Part shown: positions 4,022-50,413 of the stretch, in pieces
Layout: the number at the start of each line of letters is the position of its first letter
Position numbering within the stretch: the first letter of the stretch is position 1
Source of the DNA: Roseburia hominis
GTDB taxonomy: Bacteria > Bacillota > Clostridia > Lachnospirales > Lachnospiraceae
Direction of reading: 5' to 3'
Length of the DNA stretch: 64,000 nucleotides
Assembly: GCA_021771815.1 (NCBI GenBank)
Contig: JAETOE010000009.1
Location: 1 to 64,000 of the forward strand
Position numbers and translations under genes: made by a program
The notes under the pieces: generated by a model
The model's input: the letters and a program-made list of their open reading frames with translations, nothing else
What the model was told of the DNA's origin: nothing
Database searches by the model: none

Positions 4022-4061
4022 AAAAGTGACGATTCGTTTTTTACACATGTGCAAAAGTGAC
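4022..4061. promoter_or_regulatory. direct repeats and palindrome in the divergent glpK/chemoreceptor region
   Basis: AAAAGTGAC occurs at 4022-4030 and again at 4053-4061, exactly 31 bases apart (about three helical turns), with the palindrome CACATGTG at 4044-4051 between them. The cluster lies between glpK and the divergent chemoreceptor promoter, so it may bind a regulator of either gene. The regulator is unknown. Confidence 0.35.
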
Positions 4062-10789: not shown

Positions 10790-11383
10790 ATGAAGGAGAC
10801 ATTAAAGAGGATCAAGGCGGATATTGTTGCATCGGCGCTTTTGTGTATTGTGCTCGGCGTGGTTCTTTTGATCTGGCCGGCGGAGACGATAGGCATCTTT
10901 TGCAGAGTACTTGCAATCGGTCTGGTGATTATGGGCGTGATCGATATTACTTCATATTTTATGGATAAGAACATACACCCGTTTGCGGGAGTGCTCGGGC
11001 TGATCGTGCTGTTGGTGGGCATATGGGTGTTCATCCGCCCGGAGAGTGTGGTGAGCCTGATTCCGATCGTGATCGGTGTGATTTTGTGCGTGCATGGCAT
11101 TCAGGACATGAAGCTTGCGGCGGAGACGAAGGGGAACGGCTATGAGAAATGGTGGAGTCTTCTGATTATTGCAGTGATCAGTCTGGTGTTCGGCGTGCTC
11201 TGCATCGTCAATGCGTTTGGCATGGTAAAGCTCGCACTGCAGTTTATCGGGATTGCGTTGATCTATGACGGCGCTTCGGATCTGTGGGTTGCCAACCGCG
11301 CGGTGCACTCGGCAAAGATGATGCGGCAGGAAGCAGAAGCGGTAGATGTCGAATATCGGGAAGTGGATGACGACAAAGAATAG
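10790..11383 (+). CDS. DUF308/HdeD-type membrane protein
   Basis: A 197-residue integral membrane protein with about six hydrophobic helices arranged as three repeated helical hairpins, as in DUF308/HdeD proteins (for example LLCIVLGVVLLIWP and LIVLLVGIWVFIRP). The tail is charged and ends VEYREVDDDKE. In enteric bacteria HdeD is linked to acid resistance; in Firmicutes the role is unknown, so no function is claimed. The first in-frame GTG at 10745 is rejected because ATG 10790 follows GAGGGAGAG at suitable distance. Monocistronic between its own promoter and terminator. Confidence 0.8.
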   Translation: MKETLKRIKADIVASALLCIVLGVVLLIWPAETIGIFCRVLAIGLVIMGVIDITSYFMDKNIHPFAGVLGLIVLLVGIWVFIRPESVVSLIPIVIGVILCVHGIQDMKLAAETKGNGYEKWWSLLIIAVISLVFGVLCIVNAFGMVKLALQFIGIALIYDGASDLWVANRAVHSAKMMRQEAEAVDVEYREVDDDKE

Positions 11384-11411
11384 AAGTGATGATAAAGAGT
11401 AAGGCGGAACA

Positions 11412-11440
11412 AAAATAGCGGTGGGTTACACCGCTATTTT
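11412..11440. terminator. terminator after the DUF308 gene, possibly bidirectional
   Basis: AAAATAGCGGTG (11412-11423) and CACCGCTATTTT (11429-11440) form a perfect 12-bp stem with a 5-base loop; A-tract before and T-tract after. Confidence 0.85.
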
Positions 11441-11477
11441 CCGTTGCTCAATGTGTTTGCTGCAAATCGGAAATATC

Positions 11478-30456: not shown

Positions 30457-30849
30457 TTGGCTAACGCAAAATATTACGGAACAGGAAGAAGAAAATCATC
30501 TGTTGCCAGAGTATACTTAGTACCAGGTACAGGCAAGGTTACCATCAATAAAAGAGATATGGACGAATATTTCGGATTAGATACTTTAAAGGTTATCGTT
30601 CGTCAGCCGCTTGCAGCTACTGAGACTGCTGACAAGTTCGACGTTTTAGTAAACGTTCGCGGCGGTGGATATACAGGACAGGCAGGAGCTATCCGTCATG
30701 GTATCGCTCGTGCGTTACTGAATGTTGACGCTGATTACAGACCGATCTTAAAGTCCGCAGGATACTTAACAAGAGATCCGCGTATGAAAGAGCGTAAGAA
30801 GTATGGTCTTAAAGCAGCACGTAGAGCGCCGCAGTTCTCCAAGAGATAA
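30457..30849 (+). CDS. rpsI: 30S ribosomal protein S9
   Basis: A 130-residue ribosomal protein ending in the invariant basic tail APQFSKR, with [14 protein letters not shown] at the N-terminus. The start is TTG 30457 behind GAGGAGG; no ATG fits. It is 17 bases after rplM and terminated by a clear hairpin. Confidence 0.99.
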
Positions 30850-30889
30850 TCATACGTTTCAGAACATACAATTTCAAAAGACATTTTCA

Positions 30890-30922
30890 AACCTCTCAGA
30901 ACTTCGGCTCTGGGAGGTTTTT
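30890..30922 (+). terminator. terminator of rplM-rpsI
   Basis: AACCTCTCAGA (30890-30900) pairs with TCTGGGAGGTT (30909-30919), one G-U, loop with a TTCG-like core, then T-run to 30922. The accessory AT-rich island begins just after it. Confidence 0.92.
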
Positions 30923-30987
30923 AATTGTGTATTTTTAAGAGCGGATATGATAGAATAACAATATCACTAGGTATTGGAGGAATAACC

Positions 30988-32232
30988 ATGGAACAGACTT
31001 TTTTAACAGATATTCATATAAAAAAAGTTCGTCATTTAGAGAACATTTCCATTCCTTTAGATAAAGAAAAAAGAAAGCATTTGATATTAACAGGTAAAAA
31101 TGGAAGTGGAAAAACAAGTGTTTTGGAAGCTATGGTTAAATACGTTCAGAACTTTTTGGATGAAAATGGAACAACATTAGAACATGCAACAGATATGTAT
31201 AATCGTTGCTTAGAAAGTAACAGGCTAAGTTTACCGGAAGATTCGGAAGAGAATAGAAAACAAATTTATGAAGCAAAAAAGAATGTGGAATTCTGGGAAA
31301 GTAAACTAAAAAGATTAGATTCAGGAATTTCCTTCGAAAGTACTTCCAATGTTTTATTAAAAGAAAAATATGATCAGGGGAATTTTGTTTTTGCGTATTA
31401 TAAAGCTGAAAGAGAATTTCAGGTAGAAAAGTATAAAAATATTGAAAAAGTAGAATTACAGGACAAATATAATATCACTGAGAAGCCGGGTGCAAAACTT
31501 ACAAAATATCTTGTTGACTTGAAAGCTACGCAGGCTTTTACAAAAAATGATGAAAAAATTGAAAAAATAGATAAATGGCTGCGTACATTTGAAAATATTT
31601 TGAAAACAATTTTTGAGGATAATGATCTTGAGTTAAAATTTAATGATGAAACTTTTCAGTTTACTATCTGCGAATCAGGTAAAGAGCCCTTTGATTTTAA
31701 TACGATGTCCAGCGGATATGCGGCAATATTTGATATTATTAATGATTTGATTATAAGAATGGAAGCCAGGTCAGGACTGCGGACAGAGTTTGATATGGAA
31801 GGTATTGTTTTGGTAGATGAAATAGAGACACATTTGCATATTGAGCTACAGAAAGTGATTCTGCCTATTTTAACCGGGCTTTTTCCAAACATACAGTTTG
31901 TAATTACTACTCATTCACCGTTTATTTTAAGTTGTTTAGATAATGCTGTTATTTATGATCTTGAAAATGAAACCCTTGTAAAAAACGGATTAAAAAATTT
32001 GCCATATGAAGGTATTGTAGAGGGTTATTTTAAGGCGGACACATTGTCAGAGGAATTAAGAGAGAAATTTGAAAGATATAAGGCGCTGGTTTCTAAAGGT
32101 GAATTAACTGATGAAGAATATGGAGAAATCGATCAGTTGGAATACTATTTAGATGAAATACCCGATTATCTTGCGAAGGAATTGACGGCAGAGTATAGTA
32201 GGTTAAAATTAGAATTTTCCAATAGGGGGTAA
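30988..32232 (+). CDS. ptuA: Septu-type defence ATPase (PtuA-like)
   Basis: A 414-residue cytoplasmic ATPase of the ABC-like AAA_15/21 class. It has Walker A TGKNGSGKT (35-43), a long helical insert (about 60-220), an ABC-type signature region at MSSGYAAIF (about 240-250), Walker B ILLVDE-like GIVLVDEIETHLH (about 270-282) and the His switch FVITTHSPF (about 303-311). Together with an adjacent HNH protein this is the layout of Septu anti-phage systems. TTGGAGG lies 9 bases before ATG 30988. The coding sequence is visibly AT-rich, with frequent AAA, GAA and TTT codons, unlike its GC-richer neighbours, which points to horizontal acquisition. Confidence 0.8.
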   Translation: MEQTFLTDIHIKKVRHLENISIPLDKEKRKHLILTGKNGSGKTSVLEAMVKYVQNFLDENGTTLEHATDMYNRCLESNRLSLPEDSEENRKQIYEAKKNVEFWESKLKRLDSGISFESTSNVLLKEKYDQGNFVFAYYKAEREFQVEKYKNIEKVELQDKYNITEKPGAKLTKYLVDLKATQAFTKNDEKIEKIDKWLRTFENILKTIFEDNDLELKFNDETFQFTICESGKEPFDFNTMSSGYAAIFDIINDLIIRMEARSGLRTEFDMEGIVLVDEIETHLHIELQKVILPILTGLFPNIQFVITTHSPFILSCLDNAVIYDLENETLVKNGLKNLPYEGIVEGYFKADTLSEELREKFERYKALVSKGELTDEEYGEIDQLEYYLDEIPDYLAKELTAEYSRLKLEFSNRG

Positions 32233-32237
32233 GGAAT

Positions 32238-32894
32238 ATGGTGAAAATAGATAGGAATCCTGTTCCTCCTCCATCGCTGGAGGTTGAAAAGCAAAAATCT
32301 AATGGGCTTTACAATAAAGCAGACGTAATACAGCAGTTGAAAGAAGACTCCCATGATAAGTGCTATATTTGTGAACTGGGAGGATTGTCAGATCCGGAGG
32401 TAGAACATTTAAGGCCGCATCATGGAAGGAAAATAGCGGAAAGAGTTTTTGATTGGAATAATTTATTCTATGTGTGTCCGCATTGCAATAATTTGAAAAA
32501 GGAAGCAAAATATGATGATAAAATTATAGACTGCTGTGTTGATGATCCAGAAGAAATGTTGGAACAATGTTATGAAAATGGGCATGTGAAGGTACATAAT
32601 ATAGTAAATGAAGAATGTGCTATTATGACTGCAGAACTGATTCAGGAGAGTTTTGAAAAATGCAATACAGGGATTCGAGAAGCGGCTTGTCAATATAGAA
32701 TAGATCGTTTAGCAGAGTCAATGAGTATTTTATACAAAATATTGGAAAATCATAAAAAGAATCCAGATTCAAAACGCTATATGAAAAGTTTAAGATTTGC
32801 ATTAAGCAGGCAGAGTGCTTTTGCAGCATTTAAGAGAGGCTATATAAGAAAGCACATTGTTGATTATCCGGATTTAGAAGAATTTTTGGCATAG
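32238..32894 (+). CDS. ptuB: Septu-type HNH endonuclease (PtuB-like)
   Basis: A 218-residue HNH nuclease with zinc-binding cysteine pairs C42xxC45 (CYICELGG) and C80xxC83 (CPHCNNLKK), the catalytic EVEHLRPHHG segment (E56, H57) and the WNNLF Asn (74-75). This arrangement is that of PtuB and the TIGR02646-type retron-associated HNH proteins. Five bases separate it from the ATPase gene, whose end contains the GGGGGTAAGG site, so the pair is translationally coupled. It probably cleaves nucleic acid when the ATPase partner senses infection. AT-rich like its partner. Confidence 0.8.
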   Translation: MVKIDRNPVPPPSLEVEKQKSNGLYNKADVIQQLKEDSHDKCYICELGGLSDPEVEHLRPHHGRKIAERVFDWNNLFYVCPHCNNLKKEAKYDDKIIDCCVDDPEEMLEQCYENGHVKVHNIVNEECAIMTAELIQESFEKCNTGIREAACQYRIDRLAESMSILYKILENHKKNPDSKRYMKSLRFALSRQSAFAAFKRGYIRKHIVDYPDLEEFLA

Positions 32895-32966
32895 CAGAGG
32901 TGTGGTGAAGATTAAAGAAGGGTGATGCGTTTGTAACGTGTTTGCAACATCACCAAGAATATGGAA

Positions 32967-33000
32967 GGGCTGTCGCATTAAGTGCGGCAGCCCCGTTGTT
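32967..33000 (+). terminator. terminator after the Septu-like pair
   Basis: GGGCTGTCGCA (32967-32977) pairs with TGCGGCAGCCC (32983-32993), one G-U and 5-base loop, followed by the moderately T-rich CGTTGTTTACT. The stem GGGCTG..CAGCCC resembles the pflB/pflA intergenic hairpin (49577-49616). Confidence 0.6.
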
Positions 33001-33040
33001 TACTTGGAACTCATGGATACACCCGTATTTTCCATTGAAA

Positions 33041-33892
33041 TTACCTCCGCTTACGGTACTGCAGCGGAGACAACCCGTATGTCCGCCCAAAACTCCGAAT
33101 AAAATAACTTACGTTCGTAAAACCACAGGCGAGCGCTATATCGGTGACAGAAAGATTTGCGGATTCCAACAGATGCTTCGCGTGGGACAGGCGCAGGTAA
33201 CTGATATACTGGGTCACAGTCAGGTGAAACTGTTCTTTAAAGAAACGTGACACGTACTTTTCGGACAGATGGAAATGAGACGCCAGGTCCTTTAAACTGA
33301 TGTGATTACAGTAATTTTGCTGAAGATAAAAGAGCATCTCCTTTTGGATTCCGGCAGGATTCCCCGGACTATCATGGCGCAGCCCGTTATGCTCCGCCAG
33401 CAATTCCAGAAATTTCAGCAGAACAATCCGGACGCCGAGATGCTTTTGGTAGGAAGTTTTGCGATTCGCCTCAATCAGTTCTTCCATTAAGGATACAAGC
33501 TCTGCCAGAAGTTCGGCGTCCGTGATTTCAGGGATAAAGCGCATACTGTGGCTGCGAAGAGGAAAGAGAAGTTCGTTCTCCAGCCAGTCCTTCGATTGGA
33601 AGGACACAAATTCCAGCGGGAATAAAAGCGTAAAATAATCAACAGGTTCTTCGGAAGCGCTCATAAGGTGCAGCTCGCCGGGGCTGACAAGGTGTATGGA
33701 GTGGTCTGCGCCGATGTATTCCTGTCCGTCAATGACGAGAGACAGAGGGCCCTTTCGCACATAAATGATTTCTGCTTCGTCGTGCCAATGTACCGGAATT
33801 TGAAAGGCATGTGGATGGGGGTTCATATGGTATTCGCTGAAGGGATAATCCTTTGTTCCATGTGGGTGATTTTCTTTTAATTCTAAGTACAT
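33041..33892 (-). CDS. AraC-family transcriptional regulator
   Basis: A 283-residue regulator. The N-terminal cupin-like sensor domain (about 20-110) has histidines typical of ligand pockets (PVHWHDEAEIIYV, ELHLMSASEEPVDYFTLLF). The C-terminal double helix-turn-helix (about 180-283, LKDLASHFHLSEKYVSRFFKEQFHLT and VTDIALACGFTNVSYFIRSFGRTYGLSPLQYRK) is classical. AAAGGAG precedes the start. It is divergent from a MATE transporter gene and probably regulates it. Confidence 0.93.
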   Translation of the reverse strand: MYLELKENHPHGTKDYPFSEYHMNPHPHAFQIPVHWHDEAEIIYVRKGPLSLVIDGQEYIGADHSIHLVSPGELHLMSASEEPVDYFTLLFPLEFVSFQSKDWLENELLFPLRSHSMRFIPEITDAELLAELVSLMEELIEANRKTSYQKHLGVRIVLLKFLELLAEHNGLRHDSPGNPAGIQKEMLFYLQQNYCNHISLKDLASHFHLSEKYVSRFFKEQFHLTVTQYISYLRLSHAKHLLESANLSVTDIALACGFTNVSYFIRSFGRTYGLSPLQYRKRR

Positions 33893-35596: not shown

Positions 35597-36808
35597 ATGG
35601 AGATTATAAGGAAAGAATACTTTGAACGATTAATCGGATATAAAGATAAGAAAATTATTAAGGTAGTTACCGGAGTGAGACGTTGCGGCAAGTCGACGTT
35701 GTTAAAAATGTTTCAGGATTATCTGTTGGCGCACGAAGCGGAGCAGGAGCAGATTATCAGTATAAATTTTGAAGATTTTGAATACGAATCGCTCTGGGAT
35801 GCGAAAGCGTTGTATGAATATCTGAAGGGGAAGATTCTTCCGAACCGCATGATGTATCTGATTTTGGATGAGATACAAAACGTGAAAGACTTTCAAAGAG
35901 TGGTGGATAGTTTCTTTATAAAAGAAAATGTAGATATTTATATAACGGGTTCCAATTCATATATGTTGTCGGGAGAACTGGCAACACTGTTGTCCGGCAG
36001 ATATGTGAGGATTGAGATGTTACCGTTTTCATTCTCCGAATTTGTTCGGGCGCATCAGTTGGAACATAATCTGGAGCGGGCGTACCAGAGTTATATAGAA
36101 ACAAGTTCTTTTCCGTATGCAATACATCTGGAGGCGGCGCAAAATCAGATTCAGGATTATCTGCACAGCATTTATGATACAATCATATTAAAAGACGTGG
36201 TCAGCCGAAAGAAAATCACGGATACGATGATGCTGGAAAGTGTGGTGCGTTTTCTGGCGGACAACATAGGAAATCCGCTTTCTACAAAGAAAATCAGTGA
36301 TACGATGACTTCAAATGGAAGGGGCATTAATGTCAGAACCGTAGAATCGTATATTTCTTCTTTTATGGAATCGTATATTGTGTACCAGGCAAAGCGATAC
36401 GATATAAAAGGAAAACAATATTTGAAAACAATGGAGAAATATTACTTTGTGGATATGGGGCTTCGCAGTGTGATGCTTGGAAACAGAGGGAATACGGATG
36501 TAGGTCATGTTTTGGAGAATGTCATATATCTGGAATTGATTCGCAGAGGATATGAGGTGTACATTGGAAAAATGGAAAGTATGGAAGTGGATTTTGTCGC
36601 AAAGGATATGCAGGGTATCAAATACATTCAAGTAGCAGCAAGCGTGCGCGAGAAAAGCACGTTGGAGCGGGAACTAAGACCGCTGCAGAAAATAGCCGAT
36701 AATTATCCTAAATGTATTATGACTTTGGACATAGACCCGGCGGCAGATTATGAAGGAATCAGAAGGATCAACGCATTGGATTATCTTATGAGCAGTGTAG
36801 ACATATAA
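35597..36808 (+). CDS. AAA_14/DUF4143 ATP-binding protein
   Basis: A 403-residue ATPase. Walker A is VTGVRRCGKST (about 24-34), Walker B MYLILDEIQN (about 87-96), with an arginine-finger-type region and ITGSNSYMLSGE sensor motif (about 117-128). A DUF4143 winged-helix/PD-(D/E)XK-like C-terminus follows (about 200-400; ENVIYLELIRRGYEVYIGK, MEVDFVAK, YIQVAAS). Such proteins are common in Clostridia and archaea, often next to mobile or stress genes, without a settled role; the C-terminal DFVA..IQVA pattern looks nuclease-fold. GAGGTGATGGC precedes the start. Confidence 0.85.
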   Translation: MEIIRKEYFERLIGYKDKKIIKVVTGVRRCGKSTLLKMFQDYLLAHEAEQEQIISINFEDFEYESLWDAKALYEYLKGKILPNRMMYLILDEIQNVKDFQRVVDSFFIKENVDIYITGSNSYMLSGELATLLSGRYVRIEMLPFSFSEFVRAHQLEHNLERAYQSYIETSSFPYAIHLEAAQNQIQDYLHSIYDTIILKDVVSRKKITDTMMLESVVRFLADNIGNPLSTKKISDTMTSNGRGINVRTVESYISSFMESYIVYQAKRYDIKGKQYLKTMEKYYFVDMGLRSVMLGNRGNTDVGHVLENVIYLELIRRGYEVYIGKMESMEVDFVAKDMQGIKYIQVAASVREKSTLERELRPLQKIADNYPKCIMTLDIDPAADYEGIRRINALDYLMSSVDI

Positions 36809-46960: not shown

Positions 46961-46962
46961 CA

Positions 46963-47036
46963 GGATGTTATATGACTGACGGAACAAGTGGAAGAACCAC
47001 GTGGAGTATAACGTATCGAATGCCGACCGTCTGGGC
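46963..47036 (+). ncRNA. ZTP (pfl motif) riboswitch aptamer
   Basis: Matches the conserved pfl/ZTP RNA: P1 GTTATA (46967-46972) with TATAAC (47007-47012), the junction segment GACTGACGGAAC, P2 GTGG-AAGAA-CCAC, then GTGGAG, and the nearly invariant 3' segment CCGACCGTCTGGGC (47023-47036). These RNAs bind ZMP/ZTP, which accumulate when 10-formyl-tetrahydrofolate is short, and raise expression of one-carbon genes. Upstream of pflB it couples formate production to folate need. Confidence 0.93.
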
Positions 47037-47063
47037 GATTTACCCGGGCTGTCGGCTTATTTT
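47022..47063 (+). terminator. ZTP riboswitch expression-platform terminator
   Basis: GCCGAC (47022-47027) pairs with GTCGGC (47051-47056) and GTCTGGG with CCCGGGC, followed by TTATTTTTATT. The left arm overlaps the aptamer P3 and CTGGGC, so ligand binding and termination are mutually exclusive: a transcription-on switch. Confidence 0.9.
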
Positions 47064-47224: not shown

Positions 47225-47312
47225 CTAGAGCACAGCATCTATTTTGCGGAAATCCTGTGCCGAAAGGACAGGCAAACATATCAAAACAGTCAGAAAGCAG
47301 GAGGAAGAAGAC

Positions 47313-49541
47313 ATGCAGAAAGAGTGGAGAGACTTTAAGGGCGGAAGCTGGGAGAGGGAAATCAACGTCCGGGATTTCATTCAGAAGAATTACACCCCGT
47401 ACGACGGAGACGCCGGATTTCTTGCGGGGCCGACACAGGAGACGACGGAGTTATGGGATCAGGTGTTGGAACTGTCAAAGCAGGAGCGCGAGGCAGGCGG
47501 TGTCCTGGATATGGACACGAAGATTATTTCGACGATCACATCCCACGGACCGGGATATCTTGATAAGGATAAGGAGAAGATTGTCGGTTTTCAGACCGAT
47601 AAGCCGTTCAAGCGTGCGCTGCAGCCTTACGGCGGAATCCGCATGGCGGTAAAGGCGTGTGAGGACAATGGCTATCATGTAGACCCGGAGGTCGTAGAGT
47701 ATTTTACAACGCACAGAAAGACGCACAATGCAGGCGTATTTGACGCGTACACGCCCCAGATGCGCGCGTGCCGCTCCGCACATATCATCACGGGACTGCC
47801 GGATGCGTACGGTAGAGGACGTATCATCGGCGATTACAGAAGACCGGCGCTTTACGGTGTGGATCGTCTGATCGAGGATAAGGAAGAGCAGCTTGCGACG
47901 ACCCGCACCATCATGTATTCCGATGTCATTCGTGAGCGCGAAGAGTTATCCGAGCAGATTCGTGCGCTTAAGATGTTAAAGGAGCTTGCAAAGATTTACG
48001 GCTGTGATATTTCCAAGCCGGCAAATAACGTGCAGGAGGCGGCGCAGGCGGTGTATTTTGCATATCTTGCAGCAGTCAAGGAGCAGAACGGTGCGGCGAT
48101 GAGTCTCGGACGCACCTCCACCTTCTTAGATATCTACGCGGAGCGTGACTTAAAGGAGGGTACGTTTACCGAGCAGGAGATTCAGGAGATTGTCGACCAG
48201 TTCGTCATGAAGCTTCGCCTTATAAAATTTGCCCGCACGCCGGAGTACAACACCATTTTCGCAGGAGATCCGACGTGGGTAACGGAATCCATTGGAGGCG
48301 TAGGTGTAGACGGCAGACATATGGTAACAAAGATGTCTTACCGCTACTTAAATACCCTAAATAATATCGGAGCGGCGCCGGAGCCAAATATGACCGTGCT
48401 CTGGTCGGTACAGCTCCCGGAGAACTTTAAGCGTTTCTGCACGGAGACTTCCATTAAGCATTCTGCAATTCAGTATGAAAATGATGACATTATGCGTGTA
48501 GTACACGGCGACGACTATGGTATCGCCTGCTGTGTATCGTCCATGCGCATCGGAAAGGAAATGCAGTTCTTCGGTGCGCGTGCAAATCTTGCGAAGTGCC
48601 TGCTCTATGCGATCAACGGCGGTGTTGACGAGATGAGCGGCAAACAGGTCGGACCGAAGTATCGTCCGATTACGTCCGAATATCTGGATTACGATGAAGT
48701 GTGGGATAAATATAAGGATATGATGAAATGGCTTGCGGGCGTATACGTCAACGCGCTCAACATCATCCATTATATGCACGACAAGTATTGCTATGAGAAG
48801 CTCGAGATGGCGCTTCACGATAAGAAGGTGCGCCGCTGGTTCGCGACCGGAATCGCGGGCTTTTCCGTGGTGGCGGATTCCCTGTCGGCAATCAGGTATG
48901 CGAAGGTAAAGCCGATCCGCGACGAGAATGGCATCGCGGTTGACTTTGAAATCGAGGGAGATTTCCCGAAATACGGAAATGACGACGACCGTGTGGATGA
49001 GATTGCAAGAGAGGTGCTTCATACCTTCATCGGTTACATCAAGGGCAACCATACCTACCGCGGCGGCGTTCCGACGACGTCGATCTTAACGATCACCTCC
49101 AACGTGTCCTACGGCAAGAATACCGGAGCAACGCCGGACGGAAGAAAGCGCGGCGTCGCCTTCGCACCGGGCGCGAACCCGATGCACGGACGCGATACCC
49201 ACGGTGCGGTCGCAGCTTTGGCGTCCGTGGCGAAGCTTCCGTTCATGGATTCACAGGACGGTATCTCGAACACCTTCACGATCGTGCCGGATGCGCTTGG
49301 AAAGGATATAGAGAGCGAGAAGAACAATCTCGTGGCAATGCTCGACGCATATGTGGAGCAGGGAGGACATCATCTGAATGTTAACGTCTTAAACCGTGAC
49401 ACGCTCTTAGATGCGCAGAAGCACCCGGAGCAGTACCCGCAGCTTACCATCCGCGTATCGGGCTATGCAGTCAATTTCATTAAGCTGACAAAGGAGCAGC
49501 AGGATGAGGTAATTGCGCGGACCTTCCATGAGCGCATGTGA
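47313..49541 (+). CDS. pflB: pyruvate formate-lyase (formate C-acetyltransferase)
   Basis: A 742-residue glycyl radical enzyme that converts pyruvate plus CoA to acetyl-CoA and formate in anaerobic fermentation. The adjacent catalytic cysteines C406-C407 are in [10 protein letters not shown], and the glycyl radical loop is RVSGYAVNF with G717. The N-terminal Pfl segment, [14 protein letters not shown] and GRIIGDYRR motifs confirm pyruvate specificity over other GREs. AGGAGGAAGAAG precedes ATG 47313; the longer frame is in the leader. Followed by its activase; expression is set by the ZTP riboswitch and a second promoter. Confidence 0.98.
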
Positions 49542-49576
49542 CAGAGAGGTTTGCAGAAAGGCTCATACAAATCATG

Positions 49577-49616
49577 GGGCTGCCGCTTCACGAATTTTCC
49601 GTGAAAGCGGCAGCCC
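49577..49616 (+). terminator. strong intercistronic hairpin between pflB and pflA
   Basis: GGGCTGCCGCTTCACG (49577-49592) pairs with CGTGAAAGCGGCAGCCC (49600-49616), one bulged A. No T-run follows, so it likely stabilises the pflB 3' end or attenuates pflA, matching the lower need for the catalytic activase. Confidence 0.7.
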
Positions 49617-49639
49617 GGTTTATAACAGGGAGAAACGAT

Positions 49640-50413
49640 ATGGGAAAGATTCATTCAATCGAGACGTTCGGAACGGTGGACGGACCGGGCGTGCGGTTTG
49701 TCGTATTTTTTCAGGGCTGTCCGATGCGGTGTCAGTACTGTCATAACCCCGACACATGGCTGCCGGAGGACGGAACGGACGTTACGGCGGATGAGATTCT
49801 TGCGAAGATGGAGCGGAACCGTGCCTTTTACAAAACGGGCGGAATCACCGCAACGGGCGGAGAACCGATGCTGCAGATGGAATTTTTGACAGAGCTTTTT
49901 GCGAGGGCAAAGTCGCTTGGTATTCATACCTGTCTGGACACCTCCGGAATTATGTTCCCGGGGGAGGATGGCTGTCCCAAGGAAGGGGCAGCGCCTGATA
50001 ATAAAGCGGGGCGCATGGAGCAGATTGACGCGTTGCTTTCGGTGACCGATCTTGTCATGCTTGACATTAAGCACATGAGGCCGGAGGCGCACAGGAAGCT
50101 GACCGGGCATTCCAATGAAAATATTCTTGACTTCGCGCGATATCTCGACGCGATGCGTAAGCCCGTCTGGATCCGCCATGTGGTCGTGCCGGACATCACC
50201 TACGACAGCAAGGAACTGACGGAGCTTGGACATTTTCTTGGAACGCTTTCCAATGTAGAGAAGCTTGAGGTACTTCCGTACCATGCGCTCGGGAAGGTGA
50301 AATACGACAATCTTGGCATCGATTATGTGCTGAAAGATACGCCGCAGCTTACAAAGGAGCAGGCGAAAGAGGCGGAACGGATCATCCGGGCGGAAATGGA
50401 AAAAATTTCCTGA
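49640..50413 (+). CDS. pflA: pyruvate formate-lyase activating enzyme
   Basis: A 257-residue radical SAM protein that installs the glycyl radical on PflB. The cluster motif C27xxxC31xxC34 (GCPMRCQYC) and the following GGEPMLQ, ITATGG and VMLDIKHM motifs are standard. A roughly 15-residue acidic insertion (FPGEDGCPKEGAAPDNKA) interrupts the usual DTSG region. ATG 49640 follows GGGAG; the longer frame from 49538 runs through the intergenic hairpin and is rejected. Confidence 0.97.
   Translation: MGKIHSIETFGTVDGPGVRFVVFFQGCPMRCQYCHNPDTWLPEDGTDVTADEILAKMERNRAFYKTGGITATGGEPMLQMEFLTELFARAKSLGIHTCLDTSGIMFPGEDGCPKEGAAPDNKAGRMEQIDALLSVTDLVMLDIKHMRPEAHRKLTGHSNENILDFARYLDAMRKPVWIRHVVVPDITYDSKELTELGHFLGTLSNVEKLEVLPYHALGKVKYDNLGIDYVLKDTPQLTKEQAKEAERIIRAEMEKIS

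Follow-up and report, generated by a model that had tools for sequence, protein, structure and literature searches.

In a 64,000-nucleotide stretch of Roseburia hominis DNA (hereafter the window), two adjoining genes stand directly behind rpsI, the gene of ribosomal protein S9. This arrangement raises the question of what the two genes encode, how they reached this place and what they may do for the cell. Our answer, to which we give a probability of about 0.9, is that they form an intact stand-alone Septu system, expected to act as one PtuA-PtuB complex with an infection-triggered nuclease, gained horizontally and lodged at the 3' end of rpsI, where the genus takes up mobile and defence genes. 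Family, predicted fold, motifs, lack of a linked reverse transcriptase (RT), foreign composition, foreign phylogeny and variability of the site come from the present analysis. As to the complex, its activation, cleavage, defence and substrate, published work on relatives suggests how the pair may behave. The features of the locus are the following.

30457..30849, + strand: rpsI (ribosomal protein S9), left flank; open reading frame, with homologues in 52 of the 62 genus genomes
30889..30920, + strand: intrinsic terminator of rpsI; from hairpin folding and similarity of the trailer to relatives
30988..32232, + strand: ptuA, Septu ABC-type ATPase, 414 aa; from a PDLC00268 match, a PtuAB-like fold and conserved ATPase motifs
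32238..32894, + strand: ptuB, Septu zinc-finger HNH nuclease, 218 aa; from a PDLC00321 match, a fold like that of solved PtuB and conserved residues
32967..32993, + strand: hairpin that may terminate ptuAB, its T tail being weak; from folding
33041..33892, - strand: AraC-type regulator, right flank; open reading frame, also there in G020 (locus L039), where no ptuAB was found

The gene pair and its nearest known systems

The start of ptuA was set at the ATG at 30988 because a ribosome-binding site (GGAGG) lies upstream and relatives share the start MEQ.F; the longer version in the list of open reading frames, from a TTG at 30925, is an upstream extension of the same gene. ptuB, also starting with ATG, adjoins it on the same strand, with 5 bases between 32232 and 32238. 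A simple promoter scan of the + strand from rpsI to ptuA found no sigma-70-like site.

Both products match the PADLOC Septu profiles over nearly their full length, PtuA with E 4.7e-123 to PDLC00268 (residues 3-412 on 2-405 of 411) and PtuB with E 5.1e-85 to PDLC00321 (residues 1-217 on 1-222 of 223). Two full-length profile matches of this order (E 1e-123, 1e-85) would not plausibly arise by chance. Pfam recognizes AAA_15 and AAA_21 on PtuA, and its HNH family reaches 19.7 bits on PtuB, just under the cut-off of 21.4. PtuA carries a Walker A motif (G36-KNGSGKT43), a signature (S241-S-G243), a Walker B motif (VLVDE, 274-278) and H309. Across 17 aligned PtuA copies, drawn from the window, the same genus, other Lachnospiraceae-type records and six viral-collection contigs, no substitution is seen in the Walker A residues, among them K42, or in S241, G243, D277, E278 and H309. 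In PtuB, C42, C45, H57, H61, N75, C80, C83, N84 and K87 are invariant among 15 aligned copies, E56 is found in at least 90% of them and H82 varies; from this conservation, H57-N75-N84 is the likely active set. The first-pass annotation of this DNA had described an ABC-like ATPase with intact Walker A, signature, Walker B and His switch, coupled by 5 bases to an HNH protein with C42xxC45, E56-H57 and C80xxC83 in the PtuA-PtuB layout, and had proposed a profile search against PtuA and PtuB. Coordinates, frames and residues agree with that description, and the search returned the expected families.

Thus, the pair has what characterizes Septu in PADLOC: near-full-length matches for both genes, the gene order, co-oriented neighbours, motifs with intact catalytic residues and no linked RT. 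Nothing in it is contrary to the definition; it differs in that its nearest kin found are 75/78% identical. It is a known kind of system, to which an intact, divergent pair from Lachnospiraceae is added.

Structure predictions, whose alignments (A6/A7) have 15 and 17 rows, point to the same family. For predicted PtuB (pLDDT 91.1, pTM 0.88), eight PDB matches fall below E 0.001, and every one is retron Ec78/Eco7, retron type I-A or E. coli Septu. Predicted PtuA, a moderate model (pLDDT 80.6, pTM 0.72), gives 976 matches at E<=10 and 158 below E 0.001; the best 50 of the 976 are all PtuA or PtuAB entries, with chain lengths of 336-550 that fit PtuA. Among solved structures, the best sequence and fold matches are the PtuAB proteins of type I-A retrons (Ec78/Eco7 and Ec83; PDB 9kjx, 9e8z and others), which share the ATPase and HNH cores. 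The E. coli Septu complex (PDB 8ee4/8eea) is, like the window pair, a stand-alone two-gene system with the same folds, but it is remoter in sequence and its PtuA has 465 aa. By PtuA sequence, over about 90 residues, retron type I-A PtuAB scores 2e-17 vs 1.7e-10 for E. coli Septu; by PtuB profile, the values are 1.4e-5 to 0.014 vs 0.28. When the single PtuB sequence was compared with the PDB, no PtuB scored better than E 0.97.

This closeness in sequence and fold is the argument for seeing the pair as a relic of a type I-A retron effector, whose RT and RNA were lost. Several results speak against it and leave it highly improbable. A search with PF00078 (E<=1e-5) over 20 genomes gave three matches in the window genome (G000), on contigs C20, C56 and C85, and none on the window contig, C53, of 93,120 bases. 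A scan of the window at Rfam gathering scores returned a ZTP riboswitch alone and no retron RNA, which by itself does not decide the matter, as some retron RNAs are missing from Rfam. The retron Ec78 equivalog profiles NF041760 and NF041761 score far under their cut-offs (127.6 of 500 and 33.9 of 150 bits). The window PtuA, at 414 aa, is without the extra length of retron PtuA, mostly 542-552 aa, and relatives hold ptuA and ptuB adjacent while the neighbours change. Retron membership was therefore rejected, for want of a linked RT; the earlier view of a stand-alone form, with neither RT nor retron RNA in sight, is supported within the reach of these searches.

Composition and phylogeny

The two genes stand apart from their surroundings. 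GC is 0.312 in ptuA and 0.352 in ptuB vs 0.396-0.542 in the 15 other genes measured around the pair, and GC3 is 0.251 and 0.284 vs 0.362-0.671, so that on both measures the pair lies below the whole range. The first-pass annotation had noted that both genes are visibly more AT-rich than what surrounds them when it proposed acquisition and asked for a comparison of the locus among relatives. In that comparison, on a genus sample of 62 genomes, one per species, the pair is not general: in only three genomes (G000, G053 and G022) does a PtuB match cover most of the query. The copies of G053 and G022 are on contigs other than their rpsI contigs, and these two genomes hold two more short PtuB matches, with in-frame stops. 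In G022, ptuAB adjoins what by eye are ABC-transporter-like genes. In G053, it is clustered with a type III res-like gene on one side and a DNA methylase gene on the other (L056:1363-9981), a stretch that forms a composite defence island.

At the level of the family, 19 of 348 genomes, the window genome included, have PtuA at E<=1e-60. The best other family PtuA matches, in G380 (75%) and G080 (72%), are both from other genera, and the nearest kin found of PtuA/PtuB, at 75/78% identity, belong to another genus. In trees of 18 PtuA and 18 PtuB sequences, the window and G380 are joined at 98/97 and 100/96, and the copies from G053 and G022 fall in another clade in both. None of 200 bootstrap trees (0%) unites the three same-genus copies. 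The window's nearest rows are G380, G080, G183 and G186 for PtuA and PtuB alike; such agreement is as expected if the pair moves together.

These comparisons draw on the 18 other genomes with a PtuA match, 13 of which were fetched; the five whose matches are partial or broken (G148, G241, G267, G312, G398) were left out. The trees omit G089 and G201, whose ptuB is shortened, L112, L114, L116 and L117, which, judged by equal length, are the same contigs as G331, G053, G258 and G022, and also L113, L122, the damaged loci and, without need, L120. In the 13 fetched family loci (5-18 kb each; tblastn, E<=1e-5), rpsI was not found, so the pair seems not to travel with it.

A resident, vertically inherited and AT-rich pair, lost from most sister species, would account for PtuB relatives in three genomes of the genus. 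Both trees contradict it, the three copies never forming one group; the copies are mutually 47-57% identical vs 75/78% for the kin in another genus, they stand at three different sites, and the composition is foreign. Vertical descent thus seems most improbable. Horizontal gain of the pair, on the other hand, is well supported, because the nearest kin belong to a different genus and the window copy is kept apart from the same-genus copies in both trees. The earlier proposal of acquisition stands on this footing, with the rarity of the pair in the genus and its foreign GC and GC3 alongside. As to a vehicle, a search of 50,697 phage records (E<=1e-20) returned no match, and a plasmid collection gave two distant records (40% and 29%). 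A scan of viral contigs gave nine loci, seven spanning at least 359 query residues at 24-36% identity and two short ones at 45% over 78 residues. The pair is a clear sign of transfer between genera in a family, the Lachnospiraceae, whose phage defences have to our knowledge been little tested.

The 3' end of rpsI as a variable site

The rpsI trailer and terminator resemble those of three relatives (L044, L046, L067), and the likeness stops at 30922-30923, the end of the terminator. On these alignments, the variable stretch begins just 3' of the rpsI terminator. The right edge lies at best somewhere in 32895-33040. Folding gives z of -5.0 for the rpsI terminator and of -4.6 for the hairpin 3' of ptuB, whose T tail is weak, and two terminator-like sites were found vs 1.3 expected in shuffles. 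Of the earlier claim that the pair lies exactly between two terminators, the two hairpins and the left edge stand; the right edge is narrowed to a range, and the second hairpin is a possible terminator. In G020 (L039), the same araC and MATE genes follow rpsI, with no ptuAB match. G020 is not a clean empty site, because the 617 bases in between have a different origin. In that rpsI-araC gap, in ptuAB's place, the minus strand of L039 carries at about 11380-11475 a tiny open reading frame of 29 codons for a hydrophobic peptide, which by eye resembles the small membrane peptides that type I toxin-antitoxin systems encode.

Further along the window, an AAA_14-DUF4143 ATPase gene (35597-36808), AT-richer at a GC of 0.396, is found between MATE and radical-SAM-like genes. 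It was not found in the matching interval of G020 (L039), and is another variable piece of the region that holds the pair.

What stands behind rpsI was compared in relatives by fetching 46 rpsI loci from 45 genomes, rpsI being found in 52 of the 62. Seven loci end within 1.2 kb (L041, L045, L058, L059, L083, L089, L090) and the other 39 were clustered. Over 0.1-2.5 kb 3' of rpsI, clustering by DNA similarity separates them into 24 groups, of which 17 have a single member, and clustering by translated similarity into 19, of which 12 do; the largest group holds seven loci by DNA and ten by translation. Judged from these groups, the site varies strongly, yet neighbours are also shared. Neighbour proteins were scanned at 20 of the 46 loci, picked by eye and not at random, with PADLOC run on 10. 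Genes of mobile, defence or toxin-antitoxin type were found at 15 of these 20. Behind rpsI stand:

L042, L054, L080: tyrosine integrases
L038, L053: ParA-like proteins of one element
L071: Mutator-type transposase
L047, L055: AbiL/RloB pairs
L062: PrrC-like fragment
L075: AbiEi
L048, L066, L073: zeta-toxin-like proteins
L061: HepT
L060: D12-class DNA methylase

Five loci (L049, L059, L069, L076, L079) show no clear fit to such types. L076 looks like L075 by eye, with no Pfam match, and L059 was tried as zeta-like and dropped, no Pfam cut-off being reached. At other loci, genes that are ordinary by eye, an MFS-type transporter in L044 and ABC-transporter genes in L067, count against a purely defensive site. 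As far as the sources searched extend, no publication was found that names rpsI a Lachnospiraceae defence hotspot.

Published work reports rpsI as a target of tyrosine-integrase elements (ICE/IME integration at its 3' end) in Streptococcus (PMC4701971, PMC7168690) and in Roseburia hominis (PMC12904643). The pair could then belong to the cargo of a cryptic integrative element that has copies of the rpsI 3' end at its borders. In favour of this, rpsI is a known integrase target, also in R. hominis, and genus relatives hold integrases and a second rpsI end. Indeed, in G003 the 3' end of rpsI occurs again 116 kb downstream (L107:463-3070 with L038:792-1181; C1:332163 and 448801), between a 403-aa and an opposed 354-aa open reading frame, both with Phage_integrase matches. 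Since the reversed rpsI-end pattern has 0 to 2 chance matches per genome on a strand, the argument from G003 rests on the place between the integrases and on a 50-base BLAST similarity to rpsI. This region of G003 probably holds a large element, next to which a second one is stacked at rpsI.

The window pair differs in having neither integrase nor duplicated end. The rpsI-end pattern (at most 1 mismatch) occurs once in the whole of G000, at rpsI itself, no 13-base seed repeat was found downstream of rpsI in the window, and no integrase open reading frame lies from rpsI to araC. In addition, the repeat triples that go with these integrases are absent near the pair, where the best scores are 1.5 and 5.6 vs 31 to 43 for known triples, values inflated by the use of the same triples as training set. 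A cryptic element around the pair is thus unlikely, if less so than the retron and vertical readings.

The triples themselves, noticed by eye, consist of an 11-base repeat (GTAACTAACAA-like) that occurs three times in succession next to rpsI-site integrases in L042, L054, L080 and L107; they are also present in L039. In G027, G059, G045 and G003 they lie between the integrase and either the terminator of rpsI or the second rpsI end, and they occur too in G020, where no integrase was seen beside the triple (L039), which is perhaps a scar. A supposed triple behind ptuB, at about 32918-32958, was dropped, as it scored -1.8 vs 31 to 43; the best score in the whole window is 12.3, at 4053, far from the pair.

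Damaged relatives and putative mode of action

When contigs of named genomes were scanned with a pattern, 22 PtuA relatives turned up, or 20 after merging two near-identical pairs (L118/L119, which do not differ over 1500 bases counted from the start of ptuA, and L125/L126, 98.4% identical over 1040 bases). Both genes are whole in nine of the 20 (L111, L112, L114, L115, L116, L117, L120, L121, L130), ptuB starting later or unusually in L117 and L120, and two are cut by contig ends (L113, L122). Nine distinct relatives are damaged, with ptuA or ptuB carrying deletions or having lost an end. A deletion removes the HNH part of ptuB in L118 and L129, and in L123 and L127 it starts within ptuA and reaches the end of ptuB. 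L124, L125 and L128 lack ptuB together with the end of ptuA, and L131 and L132 are broken inside ptuA. These counts come from a scan that required an intact ptuA start, which leaves 5' losses invisible, and from draft or metagenome assemblies that may add false breaks. In the family sample, G089 has ptuB reduced to a 118-aa remnant. As nine of 20 relatives are damaged, two losing just the HNH part, the repeated damage suggests that an intact nuclease is costly.

A broader picture can be proposed, though we hold it at somewhat under even odds. The 3' end of rpsI would be a general defence-gene hotspot of the genus, which tyrosine-integrase elements of at least two kinds had seeded and which was then pared down, cargo such as Septu, AbiE or AbiL being left there without a vehicle; the PtuAB of this clade would be costly and repeatedly disarmed by HNH-removing deletions. 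The location of the pair at rpsI is mildly interesting, and rpsI gives an address at which to look for further defence genes of the group. What deserves to be retained is this site, together with the recurrent disarming seen among relatives.

Solved PtuAB complexes suggest, by analogy, that the ATPase PtuA and the HNH nuclease PtuB form one complex that is kept inactive, in which PtuA multimers would hold PtuB and position or release its HNH domain on infection. Phage infection would turn the complex on, PtuB would cut an essential nucleic acid and phage production would stop, probably at a cost to cell growth. In published work on a stand-alone system (PMC13096335), Septu EcB88 cuts the variable loop of tRNA-Tyr and depends on the ATPase as well as the HNH motif, and its defence is lost with a mutation of the PtuA Walker motifs or of PtuB H75 or N91.

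The nature of the substrate can be approached in the same way. Host tRNA seems slightly likelier, with nicked DNA as the alternative. The lean towards tRNA is due to the better scores vs retron pairs; degradation of tRNA-Tyr is described for retron Eco7 PtuAB (PMC11555353), and tRNA-Tyr is also what the stand-alone Septu EcB88 cuts (PMC13096335). The lean is weakened because, according to PMC11555353, tRNA is likely no target of retron Eco4 PtuAB. That the pair instead cleaves nicked or phage DNA has a substantial chance, a little below an even one: cleavage of nicked DNA is reported for a stand-alone pair, the Septu of E. coli ATCC 25922 (cited in PMC11555353), the HNH core is shared, and the Eco4 pair likely spares tRNA too. 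Against DNA cleavage, the E. coli pair is the remoter match in both sequence and fold.

Elsewhere in the window, the ZTP riboswitch (46962-47043) lies upstream of a PFL-like glycyl-radical enzyme gene (47244-49541), which is followed by a radical-SAM activase-like gene (49538-50413).
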